Virus record (IMG/VR): IMGVR_UViG_3300045003_000054
Span: 1-33,288 of that record
Source of the DNA: a virus
Length of the DNA stretch: 33,288 nucleotides
Direction: 5' to 3' (one strand)
Positions 2,758 through 33,191 of this stretch are shown here, piece by piece (position 1 is the stretch's first letter; the number at the start of each line of letters is the position of its first letter). A model generated the notes under the pieces. The model did not search any database. It was not told the origin of the DNA and worked only from the letters and a program-made list of their open reading frames with translations. A program made the position numbers and the translations under genes.

Positions 2758-4094
2758 TGGCGCGCGGTCTGTTTGGCAGCATCGCACGCGGAATGACCGC
2801 GCCGATGCAACGGAGCACGGCGGCGGTGCCTTCGTACGGCATGATTCCCCCGCTGGGGAGCGTACAGTCCGCCTCCGGTGTGCTCATCAGCCAAAATACG
2901 GCAATGAGCGTATCGGCGGTCTATCGTGCCGTGTATGTCCGCGCTCATGACGTCGCTCGCACAAAGCCATCGCTATACACGGAAGACGAATCGGGCACAC
3001 GCACAAAGGTGACCGACCACGCCATTGCGCGTTTGATGGTTCGGCCGAACCGCGTCCAAACGTGGTTCGAATTCATCCGCGACATGTGGGTCGCCTACCT
3101 GTTACGCGGCAACGCCTACGCGGCGATCATTCGCGACACGCGCGGCGACCCCACCCAGTTGATTTGGATTAACCCGGATGCGGTGATGGTGCTGGAAGCG
3201 GCAGACGGGTCATGGTGGTACAACGTCAATCGGATTGGCCTGTTTCAAATCGCCATGCTGCGGAATTTCCCGGTCGCTATTCCGGCCGAGGATATCCTGC
3301 ATATACGCGGCATTTCGTTCAACATGTTGGTTGCGGCGTCTACCATCGGTCTGGCCCGCGATTCCATTGGCCTCGCGATGAGCCAGGGCTTACAGGCGAG
3401 TCGCTGGGTCAACAACGGCGCGCGGCCATCCGGTGTTCTCGAAACACCCAACAAGCTGAGCGCGGATGCGGCGAAGCGCCTAAAGGCGCAGTGGGAGGAA
3501 TTTCAAAGCGGAGTCCAGAACACGGGGCGCACCGCGGTGTTAGAGGAAGGGTTGCAGTGGAAGGCGTTGCAACTCACGGCTGTCGACCTGCAGTTTATCA
3601 ATCAGCAGCAGATGAGCATTGCTGATATTGGCCGCTTCTTCGGTGTGCCTTTGCGAAAACTGATGCAACAGGACAACTCGCGCGGCTCGACCATCATTCA
3701 GGAAGATCAGAGTTATGTGAATGAGACGGTTGCGCCCGATCTTGAAATGTTAGAGCAAAAGATTGTTCAAACATTCGATCTTGACGCCGAGGGGTACGGC
3801 GTAGACCTCGACGAGAGCCCGTTGCTACGGGCTGACCCGCAAACGCGTTACAACATCGGTCGCATTGGCATCTTAAGCGGAATGATCAGCCCGAACGAAT
3901 GGCGCCGGAGTGAGCGGCTGCCGCCCGTTGACGGTGGCGATGAAATTCGCGCACCTGTCAATTTGGCCGCGTTGGGTTCCGACATGACAGGCACGTCACC
4001 GGATCAGGCGGGCAGACCACCGAACGGGCAGGCACCCAAGCCAACAGCCGAGCCTGGCGGCGATAGCGACACATCGGACGCACCCGAGGGTTGA
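2757..4094 (+). CDS. Phage portal protein, HK97 family
   Basis: The portal forms the dodecameric ring at the capsid vertex through which DNA enters and leaves, and it nucleates prohead assembly. Family signs are the N-terminal MSVSAVYRAVYVRAHDVA segment, LLRGNAYAAIIRD (about residues 118-130) followed by the P-Q-L-I-W-I-N-P-D strand, and the helical region around LKAQWEEFQSG and LQFINQQQMSIADIGRFFGVP. The last ~55 residues (after ALGSD) are Pro/Gly/Asp-rich and probably disordered. The 445-aa length is usual. It overlaps the preceding 55-aa gene by one base. Confidence 0.93.
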   Translation: MARGLFGSIARGMTAPMQRSTAAVPSYGMIPPLGSVQSASGVLISQNTAMSVSAVYRAVYVRAHDVARTKPSLYTEDESGTRTKVTDHAIARLMVRPNRVQTWFEFIRDMWVAYLLRGNAYAAIIRDTRGDPTQLIWINPDAVMVLEAADGSWWYNVNRIGLFQIAMLRNFPVAIPAEDILHIRGISFNMLVAASTIGLARDSIGLAMSQGLQASRWVNNGARPSGVLETPNKLSADAAKRLKAQWEEFQSGVQNTGRTAVLEEGLQWKALQLTAVDLQFINQQQMSIADIGRFFGVPLRKLMQQDNSRGSTIIQEDQSYVNETVAPDLEMLEQKIVQTFDLDAEGYGVDLDESPLLRADPQTRYNIGRIGILSGMISPNEWRRSERLPPVDGGDEIRAPVNLAALGSDMTGTSPDQAGRPPNGQAPKPTAEPGGDSDTSDAPEG

Positions 4095-4115
4095 GGCCAA
4101 CAGCGCGGTGGATAG

Positions 4116-5294
4116 ATGCCAAATCCCAACACACTCACAGTCGGCACGGTGAGCAACACCGACGTCGATGTTGACATGACATTACTTGACATCGGCGAGA
4201 CAGAATCGATCACGTTGACCGCCGACTACTCCATGCTGACGCCGCCCGGCTATCCCGTACGACCGAGCATGACAGGTGCCGAACCGGGGCGGTCAGGGGG
4301 CGCCCGAACGATTGCGAGCGGTACGACGTTAACTCTGATGAAACCGGAAGCTGACGCGCTCACTGCGGCGATGGGCGGTGGCGGCGGCTCTTGGTCCGTG
4401 GTGACAACCGGGGCCGAGAATACCTCCGGCACATGGATGGCCTTTGGCTTCTTTGACAATAAGTGGATCATCGTGACGCACGATGGCGTTAGCACGTCGG
4501 GTACCATCGTGTCGACTGACGGGTCGACATGGACCTATCACGCGGGCACGATCGCGAACGTTATCGCCTCCGATGAACTCACCTTCGGCGGAACGTCAAA
4601 CCTGTTTCTGATTGTCGCGCAGGACCCTAGCACGTTGGCTTTCACTCCGTGGACAAGCCCGGACGGTGTCGCATGGACTCAACGGTCGTTCGCGAGTTGG
4701 ACGGCTGGAGAGCTGCCCCAAATCGGTGGGAATGCTAGCGGGTTCGTGGCGTTGAGCGCGGGCAGCGGTCATTACGAGACCTCACCGGACGGGATCACAT
4801 GGACGGCGCAGAATGCCTACGATTCCGGCGGCAAGGTGTTCCTCTGCAACCCGTTTTGGGACGGGTCACAGTGGGTTAGCTCTGTCTGGAAAACGCCCAT
4901 CGTGTTGATCACCTCGCCTGACGGAATCCATTGGACCGAGAGCGGCATTCCAAACTCCATGAGTTGGCTAAGCACAGTCGCATACGACGGTTCGTCTCGA
5001 TACGTCATCGCGGGAACCAACGACGACAACGGCGCCTATGGAAGTCCCGGCAGTTGGACCGGGGTTAACCTGAATCAAGGTGGCGGCGCAATCGACGCCG
5101 GGTTGTCTTACGGTGGCGGGCGATTTGTCAGCGGCTGTAGCAACGGCACCGTGTCCCATTCTGCCGATGGCGGTGTCACGTGGGTGCGAGACGCCGTGCC
5201 AGGCGACATTTCTGGTCCGTTCGCCTTCGCTTACGGGCAAGGTCATATGATGCTCGCGTGTTCGGACGTCAACATGCTCCTCGTAATGAGCTAA
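4116..5294 (+). CDS. Beta-propeller-like protein with Asp-box-type repeats
   Basis: This 392-aa protein has a short N-terminal part (residues 1-85) with no recognised family. The rest carries at least five repeats of the form S-x-D-G-x-x-W: STDGSTW, SPDGVAW, SPDGITW, SPDGIHW and SADGGVTW, spaced about 40-60 residues apart. Such motifs are typical Asp-box/BNR turns of beta-propellers. No catalytic sialidase residues are evident, so a binding or structural role is more likely than an enzyme. Its place between portal and protease, in the same strand and transcription unit, suggests a virion protein such as a head-exposed adhesin or decoration protein; that role is inferred. GGTGG precedes ATG 4116. 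Confidence 0.72.
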   Translation: MPNPNTLTVGTVSNTDVDVDMTLLDIGETESITLTADYSMLTPPGYPVRPSMTGAEPGRSGGARTIASGTTLTLMKPEADALTAAMGGGGGSWSVVTTGAENTSGTWMAFGFFDNKWIIVTHDGVSTSGTIVSTDGSTWTYHAGTIANVIASDELTFGGTSNLFLIVAQDPSTLAFTPWTSPDGVAWTQRSFASWTAGELPQIGGNASGFVALSAGSGHYETSPDGITWTAQNAYDSGGKVFLCNPFWDGSQWVSSVWKTPIVLITSPDGIHWTESGIPNSMSWLSTVAYDGSSRYVIAGTNDDNGAYGSPGSWTGVNLNQGGGAIDAGLSYGGGRFVSGCSNGTVSHSADGGVTWVRDAVPGDISGPFAFAYGQGHMMLACSDVNMLLVMS

Positions 5295-29329: not shown

Positions 29330-29351
29330 TGGGTCTTATGTGGGTCTTATG
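29330..29351. repeat. 11-bp tandem duplication at the integrase 3' end
   Basis: TGGGTCTTATG occurs twice in direct contact, 29330-29340 and 29341-29351. The second copy includes the integrase stop codon (TAA at 29349-29347, minus strand). No role is evident; it may be a slippage duplication. Confidence 0.7.
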
Positions 29352-30774
29352 CCGCGAGCGGTACCGCGACTTGCTCACGCCCGATGATGCGTTGTAGGCG
29401 GCGGTCCCACTTCTTCAGCGCCCGCAGCTTGCGCCCCCAGTAATCGTGACGGTCGTAGATTTCTGTCACGTCCGTGGGCTTGCTTTTCTTCTTCTTGCGA
29501 TGGTTGATGATCCTCTTGATCGTGAACCGACTGACCCCGAGGTCTGCGAGGTTCGTCACCACAGTGCGCCGCGAGTCGTGCGGAGTGAATGGTTCCAACT
29601 TCGCCAATGGGCCGTCGTGCAACCGCTTCGGCCGTTGCCCACGCTTGCCGTGCTTTTTACCGTAGCGCAAATTGCGCAGCGCCCGAGCGAAGGTGTGCTT
29701 CCCGATTGGCTTAGTAGCACATTTGGCCTTGTGCCTATGGGGGATGAGGTATTTGCAATTTACTGACAAAACCAACAGGCGCTCGACGATCTCAACAGCA
29801 AGGTCGGTTAGGGGCACCACGTGCTCGTGGCCGTTTTTCGTGTCGTGAATTGTCCAGCGGCGCGCTTTCAGGTCAAAGTCACCGGGCTTTGATTTGCGCA
29901 CCTCTCCGCCCCGTTGCCCCGTGACCAGTATCAATTGCAGCCCCAGGCGGATGCGCTCCTGCGCCACTTGGGCTGCAGGGTCGGCTAACGCCTGCCAGTA
30001 CACCCGGATTTCGTGCGCCTCCAGAACGCGCTCGCGCGATCCCTCCGCCCCTCCAGGCGCCTGGATGTCGGCGAAGGGGTTCAGGTCCAGCCCCTTTTCA
30101 TCCCATGCGCGGTCACGGATCAGAAATTTGCACATCTGTCCCGCCATCTGGCAGAAGCGGTTGGCCTCAACAGGTGCCCCGCGCCTCACAATCCCGTCGA
30201 GTAGTTGGACCGCATCACGCCGCCGCTTGAGGCGCAAGTCATGCGAGAACCATGGCCGCAGGTTCTTCTTCAGGAGCCACAGCGAATCGCGCGGGTTCTT
30301 GTGGCGCTTGCGCGCGTAGTGCCACACCCATTCCGCAATGGCATTGCGTGCCGTGAGCACCGCCCCCGCGCCGGCGTCGGACGGACCGCCTGAATCGGTG
30401 GGTCGCGTTGGGTTGTCGCCCCCTGGTGGCGGATTCTGCGGGCTTTGCGGCTCATGGGGGTGCGTGGGGCTCCACACCATCGTCCTGGGGTCAATCGCCC
30501 GCCGGACGAGTTTGCGCGCGGCCTCGTGGGCCTCGTGGGCCTGTTCTAGCGTCCATAGCGGCGGACCGCTGTCCCCGAATTCGCCATACGTGACAAACCC
30601 CGGCGACTGGCCCGCTATTTGGAACCGCGTCCCGAACGTGCGGGTCCCGGTCTCGGACACCCGGACCTGAAAGCCTTTGCGCCCCTTTTCGGTTACCGCA
30701 TAGCGCTTGCCGTCCGTGGGTCGCTTGAGGGACCGTATCCACGTAGCAGTGAACACACGCGCTGGGTGCTTCAT
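29347..30774 (-). CDS. int: Tyrosine-type site-specific integrase
   Basis: This recombinase inserts phage DNA into a host tRNA-Pro gene. Catalytic residues are visible: Arg288 in TGQRGGEVR, Lys313 in DTKNGHEH, His399 and Arg402 in TPHDSRRT, His425 in IINHR, and Tyr440 in TEIYDRHDYW. The N-terminal ~100 residues form the arm-binding domain (GKRYAVTEKGRKGFQVRVSETGTRTF). It is joined to the core-binding domain by a Pro/Gly/Ser-rich linker (about 104-138) unusual for the family. Length is 475 aa, slightly long. It starts at ATG 30774, 27 bases from the nearest arm-type repeat at attP. Confidence 0.93.
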   Translation of the reverse strand: MKHPARVFTATWIRSLKRPTDGKRYAVTEKGRKGFQVRVSETGTRTFGTRFQIAGQSPGFVTYGEFGDSGPPLWTLEQAHEAHEAARKLVRRAIDPRTMVWSPTHPHEPQSPQNPPPGGDNPTRPTDSGGPSDAGAGAVLTARNAIAEWVWHYARKRHKNPRDSLWLLKKNLRPWFSHDLRLKRRRDAVQLLDGIVRRGAPVEANRFCQMAGQMCKFLIRDRAWDEKGLDLNPFADIQAPGGAEGSRERVLEAHEIRVYWQALADPAAQVAQERIRLGLQLILVTGQRGGEVRKSKPGDFDLKARRWTIHDTKNGHEHVVPLTDLAVEIVERLLVLSVNCKYLIPHRHKAKCATKPIGKHTFARALRNLRYGKKHGKRGQRPKRLHDGPLAKLEPFTPHDSRRTVVTNLADLGVSRFTIKRIINHRKKKKSKPTDVTEIYDRHDYWGRKLRALKKWDRRLQRIIGREQVAVPLAA

Positions 30775-30800: not shown

Positions 30801-30823
30801 CCCGGCTACAGTTCGGCTACAGT
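30801..30823. repeat. Left arm-type site pair at attP
   Basis: CGGCTACAGT occurs at 30803-30812 and 30814-30823, 11 bases apart, same orientation. The same 10-mer occurs twice more at 31081-31102 on the other side of the tRNA-derived core. These fit binding sites for the integrase arm-binding domain. Confidence 0.7.
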
Positions 30824-30893
30824 GAGCCAATTGCTGCACTGTATCCGGCTGTGCGCAGTGCAGAGTTGAGCAAGCCTCAGCGGGGCGCAAAAA

Positions 30894-30955
30894 AAGTTGG
30901 GAAACACCTATGTTTTTAGCACTTTCAGCGGATGCCCAAGTTGGGAAAACTTGGG
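30894..30955. repeat. Direct and inverted repeats beside the attP core
   Basis: AAGTTGGGAAA occurs at 30894-30904 and 30938-30948. The second copy lies in a perfect inverted repeat, CCCAAGTT (935-942) and AACTTGGG (948-955), with a 5-base gap, directly beside the core. It has no T-run, so it is more likely a protein site (excisionase or a host factor) than a terminator. Confidence 0.5.
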
Positions 30956-30961
30956 TAGAGA

Positions 30962-31011
30962 TGGTCGGGGCGACAGGATTCGAACCTGCGACCTTCTGGT
31001 CCCAAACCAGA
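30962..31011 (-). other. attP core: 3' half of tRNA-Pro(UGG)
   Basis: Read on the minus strand, this stretch holds an anticodon stem-loop (TCTGG, loop TTTGGGA with anticodon TGG, CCAGA), variable region, T-arm (CAGG-TTCGAAT-CCTG), acceptor strand CGCCCCG and ACCA. The 5' acceptor strand needed to pair with CGCCCCG is absent (GTTTGTA is found in its place), so it is not a working tRNA gene; only a weak D-arm-like stretch follows. A tRNA 3' end next to an integrase gene is the usual attachment core. Confidence 0.82.
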
Positions 31012-31054
31012 GAGACTACCGACCAAGTGCCCAGTACAAACAACAACTTAGCTG

Positions 31055-31282
31055 TCATGGGTTCCTCACATTTCCGGTTTCGGCTACAGTTTCGGCTACA
31101 GTTTTCTCCGCCCCCTTCCGCTTCGCTTTCCGCGCCTCGGCCATTGCCTTGTAGTGCTCTGGTGATCGCGCTTTACGCTTGCCTTTGGCCGTTCCGCCTT
31201 TCTTGCCGCCCTTTTTGCCGATACTCGCCAAGTAAGCGCGGACGGGGTCGTCCGAGGGGGGGGCGTCCGAGGGGCCGCTCAC
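31055..31282 (-). CDS. Small lysine-rich protein, unknown
   Basis: The 75-aa product starts at GTG 31282, overlapping the upstream gene stop (GTGA), so it is probably co-translated. It is very basic, with the patch IGKKGGKKGGTAKGKRKARSPEHYKAMAEARKAKRKG, resembling Gly/Lys/Ala-rich motifs of small bacterial nucleic-acid-binding proteins. Its 3' end runs through the right arm-type sites of attP, so the last residues (KTVAETVAETGNVRNP) are set by that DNA. Function is unknown; DNA or RNA binding is a guess from charge. Confidence 0.55.
   Translation of the reverse strand: MSGPSDAPPSDDPVRAYLASIGKKGGKKGGTAKGKRKARSPEHYKAMAEARKAKRKGAEKTVAETVAETGNVRNP
31081..31102. repeat. Right arm-type site pair at attP
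   Basis: CGGCTACAGT at 31081-31090 and 31093-31102, 12 bases apart and in the same orientation as the left pair. They overlap the 3' end of the small gene 31055-31282, where they encode the repeated residues VAETVAET. Confidence 0.7.
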
Positions 31283-31545
31283 GCCGCCACCCGCACTGCG
31301 TATTTGGCGACGAACGCCTCGCCTGCGGGCGTCAGAAACACCTCGTCGAATGCCTTGCTGTAGCTCACAAGCCCTTTGGAGCGGAGCGCGTGGAGTACTT
31401 CCGCGCCCCGGCTGAGATTCAACACGTCAGCGCCGAAGGCATTCACCACGACCTTGTACGCGGAGATGTAGCCGCCGTTCGTTGAAGTGGGACGCAGCTT
31501 GAGCAGTTCGGTTAGAAGGGCGAGGAACTTTTCGAGGCGGTTCAT
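31279..31545 (-). CDS. Small putative winged-helix protein
   Basis: ATG 31545 has a strong AAGGAG six to seven bases upstream, so the in-frame start at 31572 is not needed. The 88-aa product is helical with a likely turn and C-terminal beta hairpin (ISAYKVVVNAFGADVLNLSRGAEVLHALRSKGLVSYSKAFDEVFLTPAGEAFVAKY), which suits a winged-helix DNA-binding fold. It is divergent from the 31700 gene across a palindromic operator and precedes the Lys-rich gene with an overlap. A regulatory role is inferred. Confidence 0.62.
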   Translation of the reverse strand: MNRLEKFLALLTELLKLRPTSTNGGYISAYKVVVNAFGADVLNLSRGAEVLHALRSKGLVSYSKAFDEVFLTPAGEAFVAKYAVRVAA

Positions 31546-31699: not shown

Positions 31700-31924
31700 A
31701 TGAAGCAAGACCTGTGCGCCTCGGATAGCGACATCAAAGCCCTCTTACTGCGCGAGACGGTAACGGTGGAAGAGCTGCGGGACCGAGTAGTGCAGCATTT
31801 TAGCCCCCGGCCCCCCCGAATCTGGCTCGATGGAGTTGTCACGGCTTCTTCGCCGAAGGCGCTTTCGGTCGCCCGTAGTCCGTCCGTAGCCGGTCGAAGC
31901 CGACCACTTAAGAAACAAACCTAA
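31700..31924 (+). CDS. Small phage protein, unknown
   Basis: GGAAGG lies five bases before ATG 31700; the longer in-frame version from 31487 would run antisense through the 31545 gene and has no such site. The 74-aa product has an acidic/helical N-terminal half (KQDLCASDSDIKALLLRETVTVEELRDRVVQHF) and an Arg/Ser/Pro-rich tail. No family is recognised. It is divergent to 31545 and its stop overlaps that of the convergent HTH gene by 4 bases. Position suggests an early regulatory gene. Confidence 0.5.
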   Translation: MKQDLCASDSDIKALLLRETVTVEELRDRVVQHFSPRPPRIWLDGVVTASSPKALSVARSPSVAGRSRPLKKQT

Positions 31925-32190
31925 CTCGCGAGGTGGGTGCGTGTACGCATCGCCCGACCCCACGCTCTGACTTTATTCGCCGACGCGAGTGTCGGCCAAT
32001 CCTCGCGCTTGATCCAACGCGATATCGTGCGTTGAGCCACTCCTATATCTTTCGCCACGCGACGAATCGAATGCCCGGACCGAATTGCGCGGCTGACTAA
32101 GGTGACAACGCAAGCCACATCAGAAGCGTTCAGCGGGCTGCGGCGTTTACCGGTGGGCCAGTGTCCCCGACCATCTCTGCGAGCGCTCAT
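31921..32190 (-). CDS. Helix-turn-helix protein (short paralogue)
   Basis: This 89-aa protein has a conserved lead RRDGRGHWPTGKRRS and an HTH at about residues 36-64 (SGHSIRRVAKDIGVAQRTISRWI). Its residues 4-76 match residues 110-182 of the 32595 protein at roughly half of the positions, so the two are paralogues. It begins at ATG 32190, overlapping the stop of a 30-aa upstream gene by ATGA. Likely a sequence-specific DNA-binding regulator; target unknown. Confidence 0.7.
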   Translation of the reverse strand: MSARRDGRGHWPTGKRRSPLNASDVACVVTLVSRAIRSGHSIRRVAKDIGVAQRTISRWIKREDWPTLASANKVRAWGRAMRTRTHLAS

Positions 32191-32594: not shown

Positions 32595-33191
32595 TCAACG
32601 CTCATGGGTATGCTCCGTTTGATGGTTAGAGTCTATCGTGAGAAGCTGTAACTTTTCAGCGGAAGCCTTCGTCGGTTTGTCCTCGCCTGAAAACCAACGT
32701 CGAAGCGTACGTTCACTTATTCCAGTCACACGAGCCACAGCGCGCATAGACATTCCAGACGCCAAAGCCTCACTTAGCATACGCACTAGTCGTATCGCGT
32801 CCTCGGAAGATAAATCACTGCGACGCTTGTTCGCTTGCCAGTGACCTCGGCCATCCTTCCGGACGCTCCTTTTCGCGGGCGATCGGTCCTCAGGAAGCAA
32901 TAACGTTACATTGTAGAATTCACGATCTAAGCGATGGCGTCTAGCGATGCGCGAGCATTTTGGGCAATCAGCCTCATGAACCGTATGCTCCTTGCAGCCG
33001 AGTGTTTGCTCCGTCACGTATGCGGTGTACGATCTCTTGCAGCGTAGATGCTGATTAATTCGATTGAGGAAATTTGGGTTGTCGCGGTTGTAGAGAGCTC
33101 TCGCTCTCGATCTCGCTTTCGCTTTTTCTTTCGCGCTCACGACTGATCGCCCCGTTGATGCCGCCTTCGGCGTCAGCATCGGACTAGCCAT
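32595..33191 (-). CDS. HTH protein with Cys/His-rich N-terminal domain (long paralogue)
   Basis: AAGGG precedes ATG 33191 at about 8 bases. Of 198 residues, 1-35 are basic and flexible. Residues 48-88 are Cys/His-rich (C51; CKEH at 66-69; H72; C76 and C79 in DCPKC), plausible for a small zinc-binding unit. Residues 110-182 are the same RKDGRGHW-plus-HTH domain as the 31921 protein, with the HTH at ~145-167 (GMSMRAVARVTGISERTLRRWF). Likely a DNA-binding regulator or replication-region protein; no named family is recognised. The 97 bases beyond its start to the window end hold no clear gene. Confidence 0.68.
   Translation of the reverse strand: MASPMLTPKAASTGRSVVSAKEKAKARSRARALYNRDNPNFLNRINQHLRCKRSYTAYVTEQTLGCKEHTVHEADCPKCSRIARRHRLDREFYNVTLLLPEDRSPAKRSVRKDGRGHWQANKRRSDLSSEDAIRLVRMLSEALASGMSMRAVARVTGISERTLRRWFSGEDKPTKASAEKLQLLTIDSNHQTEHTHER

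Follow-up and report, generated by a model that had tools for sequence, protein, structure and literature searches.

The 33,288-base IMG/VR record IMGVR_UViG_3300045003_000054, a complete contig analysed over its whole length (the window), is a temperate siphophage, and the region between positions 30803 and 31102 is very probably its complete, unrecombined attachment site (attP), accompanied by a tyrosine integrase (Int) of the P4 type. The 3' part of a tRNA-Pro(TGG) gene is flanked on each side by a tandem pair of a 10-bp repeat, CGGCTACAGT, and the integrase gene (int) adjoins one of the pairs. The defining features are:

29347-30774, minus strand: tyrosine integrase of the P4 type, 475 amino acids, with Pfam and PHROG matches and conserved catalytic residues
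30803-30823, plus strand: int-side arm pair, two CGGCTACAGT copies with an 11-bp period, a layout unmatched in shuffles
30962-31011, minus strand: attP core, the 3' 50 nt of tRNA-Pro(TGG), which run from the anticodon stem to the CCA and do not differ from the intact gene in an environmental genome (L117)
31081-31102, plus strand: distal arm pair, two CGGCTACAGT copies with a 12-bp period, likewise unmatched in shuffles

The four copies of CGGCTACAGT are exact and all on the plus strand (30803-30812, 30814-30823, 31081-31090, and 31093-31102), and the two pairs are 278 bp apart. The initial annotation of this DNA, made from the letters alone, had described close direct copies on each side of the tRNA fragment, 11 and 12 bp apart, and these coordinates and spacings are correct. 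A search of the whole contig returns only these four copies, so that the 10-mer is not frequent elsewhere. The further claim that all copies point the same way holds for the exact ones but had missed an inverted copy with one mismatch, which may serve as a fifth arm site or belong to an operator palindrome:

30838-30847, minus strand: inverted near-copy CGGATACAGT, one mismatch to CGGCTACAGT, on the core side of the int-side pair

The layout was compared with dinucleotide shuffles by taking the longest k-mer that forms two tandem pairs 100-400 bp apart. The window gives k = 10, whereas the maximum was 5 when the local 600 bp were shuffled 1000 times and 6 when the whole contig was shuffled 30 times. 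This bears on the distal pair in particular, as it lies in a predicted gene:

31055-31282, minus strand: small basic open reading frame (ORF) of 75 amino acids, its 3' end formed by the distal arm pair and reading TVAE-TVAE

One could thus regard the distal pair as a coding repeat whose likeness to the int-side pair is coincidental, since it is in frame and its 12-bp period corresponds to four codons. Yet the exact 10-mer also occurs in the noncoding int-side pair, with an 11-bp period, the shuffles do not exceed 5-6 nt, and the distal pair of P4 is likewise inside a predicted ORF. This explanation is barely credible. A family search with the 75-residue protein gave no match.

The core is a fragment of tRNA-Pro(TGG) and comprises only the 3' part of the gene. 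Positions 30961-31011 form a block of 51 nt identical to the 3' part of the intact gene in L117, as the initial annotation had it when it named a tRNA-Pro(UGG) 3' fragment as the core; base 30961 lies beyond the CCA, which leaves 30962-31011 as the actual tRNA portion. In the 28 nt located 5' of this block, only 10 positions agree with the intact gene. ARAGORN predicts a whole tRNA at 30962-31034, but the Rfam tRNA score of the core region (24 bits) is below the gathering cut-off (29), and, together with the poor match of the 5' part, this led us to reject the prediction. A 3' part is what one expects in the attP of a phage that integrates in a tRNA gene, as it is enough to rebuild the host gene upon integration. 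Just beyond the tRNA 3' end there is also a perfect 8-bp hairpin, CCCAAGTT-gggaa-AACTTGGG, at 30935-30955, which is not followed by a T run.

Because the core holds only the 3' part of the tRNA and a second arm pair lies beyond it, the site is best read as an unrecombined attP and not as attL or attR, in which one arm would be absent. Alternatively, the region might be the attL or attR of an integrated prophage, with host chromosome on one side of the core and an incidental second repeat pair. The contig is classed as linear in IMG/VR, and its right 2.2 kb lack close phage relatives and have a G+C content of 56% (versus 59%). However, in this orientation of the tRNA an attL beside int should hold the whole gene, which both the 10/28 agreement of the 5' part and Rfam contradict. 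The same 10-mer pair is found on both sides of the core, and two proteins encoded to its right match phage DNA-binding families, albeit weakly (phrog_664). We consider the prophage-end explanation very unlikely. The presence of both arms, from which the initial annotation had deduced unrecombined DNA, is borne out, with the 5' half of the tRNA absent. Nor is there a recognizable host gene directly beyond the core at 31011, the second arm pair being found there instead.

Within the unrecombined attP, two further elements can be placed by their position:

30995-31011, minus strand: predicted strand-exchange region, stem arms TCTGG and CCAGA flanking the 7-nt loop TTTGGGA (31000-31006)
31038-31050, plus strand: site resembling those of integration host factor (IHF), AAACAACAACTTA, one mismatch to WATCAANNNNTTR, between the core and the distal arm pair

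The identity with the intact tRNA ends exactly at the 5' side of the TCTGG-TTTGGGA-CCAGA anticodon stem. Hence, the two stem arms are probably inverted core-type sites and the 7-nt loop the overlap, which would place the crossover there. A one-mismatch IHF-like match within 460 bp is not rare by itself, and the argument for this one is a position common to the window, P4, and the phages F116 (Pseudomonas) and S1 (Stenotrophomonas): matches with zero or one mismatch occur between the core and the distal pair in P4, and F116 and S1 have theirs at the equivalent position, between the two pairs and after the distal one.

The integrase has above-cut-off matches to the Pfam families Phage_integrase (1.2e-16) and Arm-DNA-bind_3 (DUF4102; 2.7e-9) and matches the integrase family phrog_1 (6.6e-44). 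Its catalytic set R-K-H-R-H-Y is complete: R288, K313, R402, H425, and Y440 are invariant in the alignment with relatives, and H399 is found in the motif HDSRR. A single-sequence scan of viral and genome contigs returned no close relative of the protein. The initial annotation took it for a lambda-type enzyme. A tyrosine integrase with an arm-binding domain it is, but its closest model is P4, with which it shares Arm-DNA-bind_3 and the attP layout, and not lambda. The attP of lambda has in common with the window the arm-core-arm logic of the intasome; it differs in having its core outside a tRNA, an arm domain of another family, and another orientation of int relative to att. A perfect 11-bp tandem duplication, TGGGTCTTATG, overlaps the 3' end of int (29330-29351).

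In the mechanism that we infer, the N-terminal Arm-DNA-bind_3 domain of Int would bind the two CGGCTACAGT pairs, while its core-binding and catalytic domains would take the halves of the anticodon stem as their sites. An IHF-like host bending protein may fold the arm at 31.0-31.1 kb and so allow arm and core sites to be bridged. The phage would then integrate by strand exchange with the tRNA-Pro(TGG) gene of the host, within the 7-bp anticodon-loop region, and the phage-borne 3' half would restore the host tRNA.

The int-side pair may have a second function, the repression of int. As in P4 and KplE1, the gene is transcribed away from attP; only 29 bp separate its start from the nearest arm site, and with the int-side pair so close upstream, int is probably under negative autoregulation. 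In P4, int is reportedly repressed by Int and the recombination directionality factor (RDF, or excisionase), with promoter and att overlapping. The same is found in KplE1, where the int promoter overlaps att (PMC2951348), and in both the intS attL of KplE1 and ICEMlSym-R7A the int promoter lies within the att region and leads to Int autoregulation (PMC2951348; PMC11963761). The near-copy CGGATACAGT coincides in part with a perfect 7-bp inverted repeat (30818-30843), an arm-like palindrome. Adjoining this palindrome upstream of int is another inverted repeat, CTGCACTG/CAGTGCAG (30834-30863), a possible operator. The closeness of the int-side pair to the int start and the adjoining palindrome would also fit a reading of the 10-mers as operators of a repressor or of the RDF, whose sites too are direct repeats one helical turn apart, instead of Int arm sites. 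Against this, pairs that flank the core agree with the Int arms annotated in P4 and with the arm motifs known from ICEMlSym-R7A (PMC11963761), and we hold the operator interpretation to be improbable.

P4 (NC_001609) provides the closest comparison for arm sites bound by Int. Its "attP arm sequence repeat" is annotated at 3942-3953, 3954-3965, 4151-4162, and 4163-4174, around a core at 4078-4097, with an inverted copy at 3915-3926. As in the window, an arm-domain integrase is transcribed away from attP, a tandem arm pair in the same direction stands on each side of a tRNA core, the distal pair is within a small predicted ORF, and the distances are similar: from the core center to the distal and int-side pairs there are 88 and 190 bp in the window, 75 and 134 in P4, and 78 and 146 in Salmonella phage PT1. 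P4 differs in its arm motif (of the type GGGGGCA), in the 12-bp period of both pairs, in an annotated core of only 20 bp, and in a sixth annotated repeat within int. Its inverted fifth arm is at the int start, whereas the counterpart in the window, CGGATACAGT, is degenerate and on the core side. Phages F116 (TAGTACAT) and S1 (GGGGTAT) follow the plan of the window, with two tandem pairs of 12-bp period upstream of int, but have motifs of their own and, close to the start of int, a fifth copy that is inverted. PT1 (TACCCTAA) also has two 12-bp tandem pairs upstream of int. The intS attL of KplE1 (PMC2951348) and the attP of ICEMlSym-R7A (PMC11963761) resemble the window in having Int arm sites around a tRNA core, but they are experimentally proven and have other tRNA targets and motifs. 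In ICEMlSym-R7A, there are five IntS arm motifs, all needed for efficient integration (PMC11963761).

In Serratia phage MQ-4 and in PT1, a whole tRNA-Arg gene is annotated, and what lies between the arm pairs is a separate core that consists of the anticodon stem-loop only (GCTTAGAAGGC). The two elements are at 2018-2099 and 2225-2235 in L024, and at similar positions in L025 and L028. The last of these, Alux-21, has the same repeats as MQ-4 and PT1, with no tRNA annotation in the part seen. The arrangement of MQ-4 and PT1 resembles the tRNA-dependent lysogeny of mycobacteriophages (PMC10865867).

The layout recurs among relatives in IMG/VR. Two-pair repeats with k ≥ 6 are found in 8 of the 30 testable regions upstream of related integrases and in none of 33 control stretches (Fisher p = 0.0015). 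One relative (L191, UViG_3300030104_004797) has a tRNA-Pro 3' half, starting at the anticodon stem, that is flanked on each side by a AAGTGTGCCACA pair with an 11-bp period, although its arm motif is another one and its integrase is only about 25% identical. In L140, a tRNA-Lys-like 3' half lies between the repeat pairs. The closest integrase homolog (L127, 36%) has ACTGTACC twice at an 11-bp distance, a sequence that resembles ACTGTAGCCG on the minus strand of the window; these repeats are on one side only of a tRNA-like fragment, and we do not count this suggestive case as a matching layout. When viral contigs were searched for the arm-pair pattern, 20 stretches came up, and neither a related integrase nor the four-copy layout of the window was present in any of them.

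Several observations weigh against an attP of this kind. The two-pair test is empty at k ≥ 6 in 22 of the 30 relatives: the layout may be frequent without being universal, or it may be degenerate, or these regions may not be attP. The int-side spacing of the window (190 bp) exceeds those of P4 (134) and PT1 (146). An inverted fifth copy at the int start, as in P4, F116, and S1, was not found near 30774, and the degenerate one is on the core side; such a copy is common at this place but is not a demonstrated strict requirement. For the genes right of the core, the phage set contains no close relative. Neither an integrated copy, nor attL or attR, nor the host strain was found, and the one clue to the host, a core match in a planctomycete bin, is weak. 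The initial annotation spoke of "phage or episomal DNA", and here the unrecombined attP remains the best reading, but one of anatomy only.

As to the host, nucleotide searches of phages and plasmids returned only short matches, at the tRNA-Pro core. The sole exact match to the 50-nt core among genome contigs is the intact tRNA-Pro of L117 (6224-6301), a planctomycete metagenome bin from Lake Erken; the gene lies 15 bases from where the contig stretch ends. This is a single bin, and the planctomycete sample has many near matches to the core, so that the exact match does not settle the host.

Beyond the core, the second arm pair at the end of the small ORF is followed by helix-turn-helix genes with weak phage-family matches, and the phage origin of this flank would follow from anatomy rather than homology. 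Two of the encoded proteins (31921-32190 and 32595-33191, minus strand) have a common C-terminal region (R-DGRGHW...KRRS...) and look like paralogs or a duplicated regulator. An 88-residue ORF at 31279-31545 was considered as an excisionase, but its predicted structure (pLDDT 55) is unusable. On the other side of the contig, terminase, portal, head, tail, and spanin genes of a siphophage-like tailed phage are on the plus strand and precede the minus-strand block with the integrase. The terminase is nearest to those of environmental contigs (up to 87% identity) and of rhizobial phages (61%). Only 3 of 41 records with a related terminase have even a weak integrase match, and hence the integrase module is not a common trait of the terminase lineage.

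In conclusion, this attP is well preserved but ordinary for the P4 type; what is new is limited to the motif, the assignment of the target, and slight differences in the spacing of the arms and the position of the fifth site, and the understanding of the integration mechanism is unchanged. A tentative and rather doubtful generalization is that Arm-DNA-bind_3 integrases can in general be recognized, whatever the motif, by two tandem arm pairs and a variable fifth site placed around a tRNA half. If so, the geometry alone would be enough to read attachment sites and arm motifs from raw phage DNA, and the phage of the window would be a variant in which the int-side arm is longer and the inverted fifth site has moved. 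The contig would represent a temperate phage caught unintegrated, its probable target being the anticodon loop of tRNA-Pro(TGG), and it provides a clean set of arm sites for an uncharacterized integrase, which could serve integration vectors or the prediction of attP in other phages.
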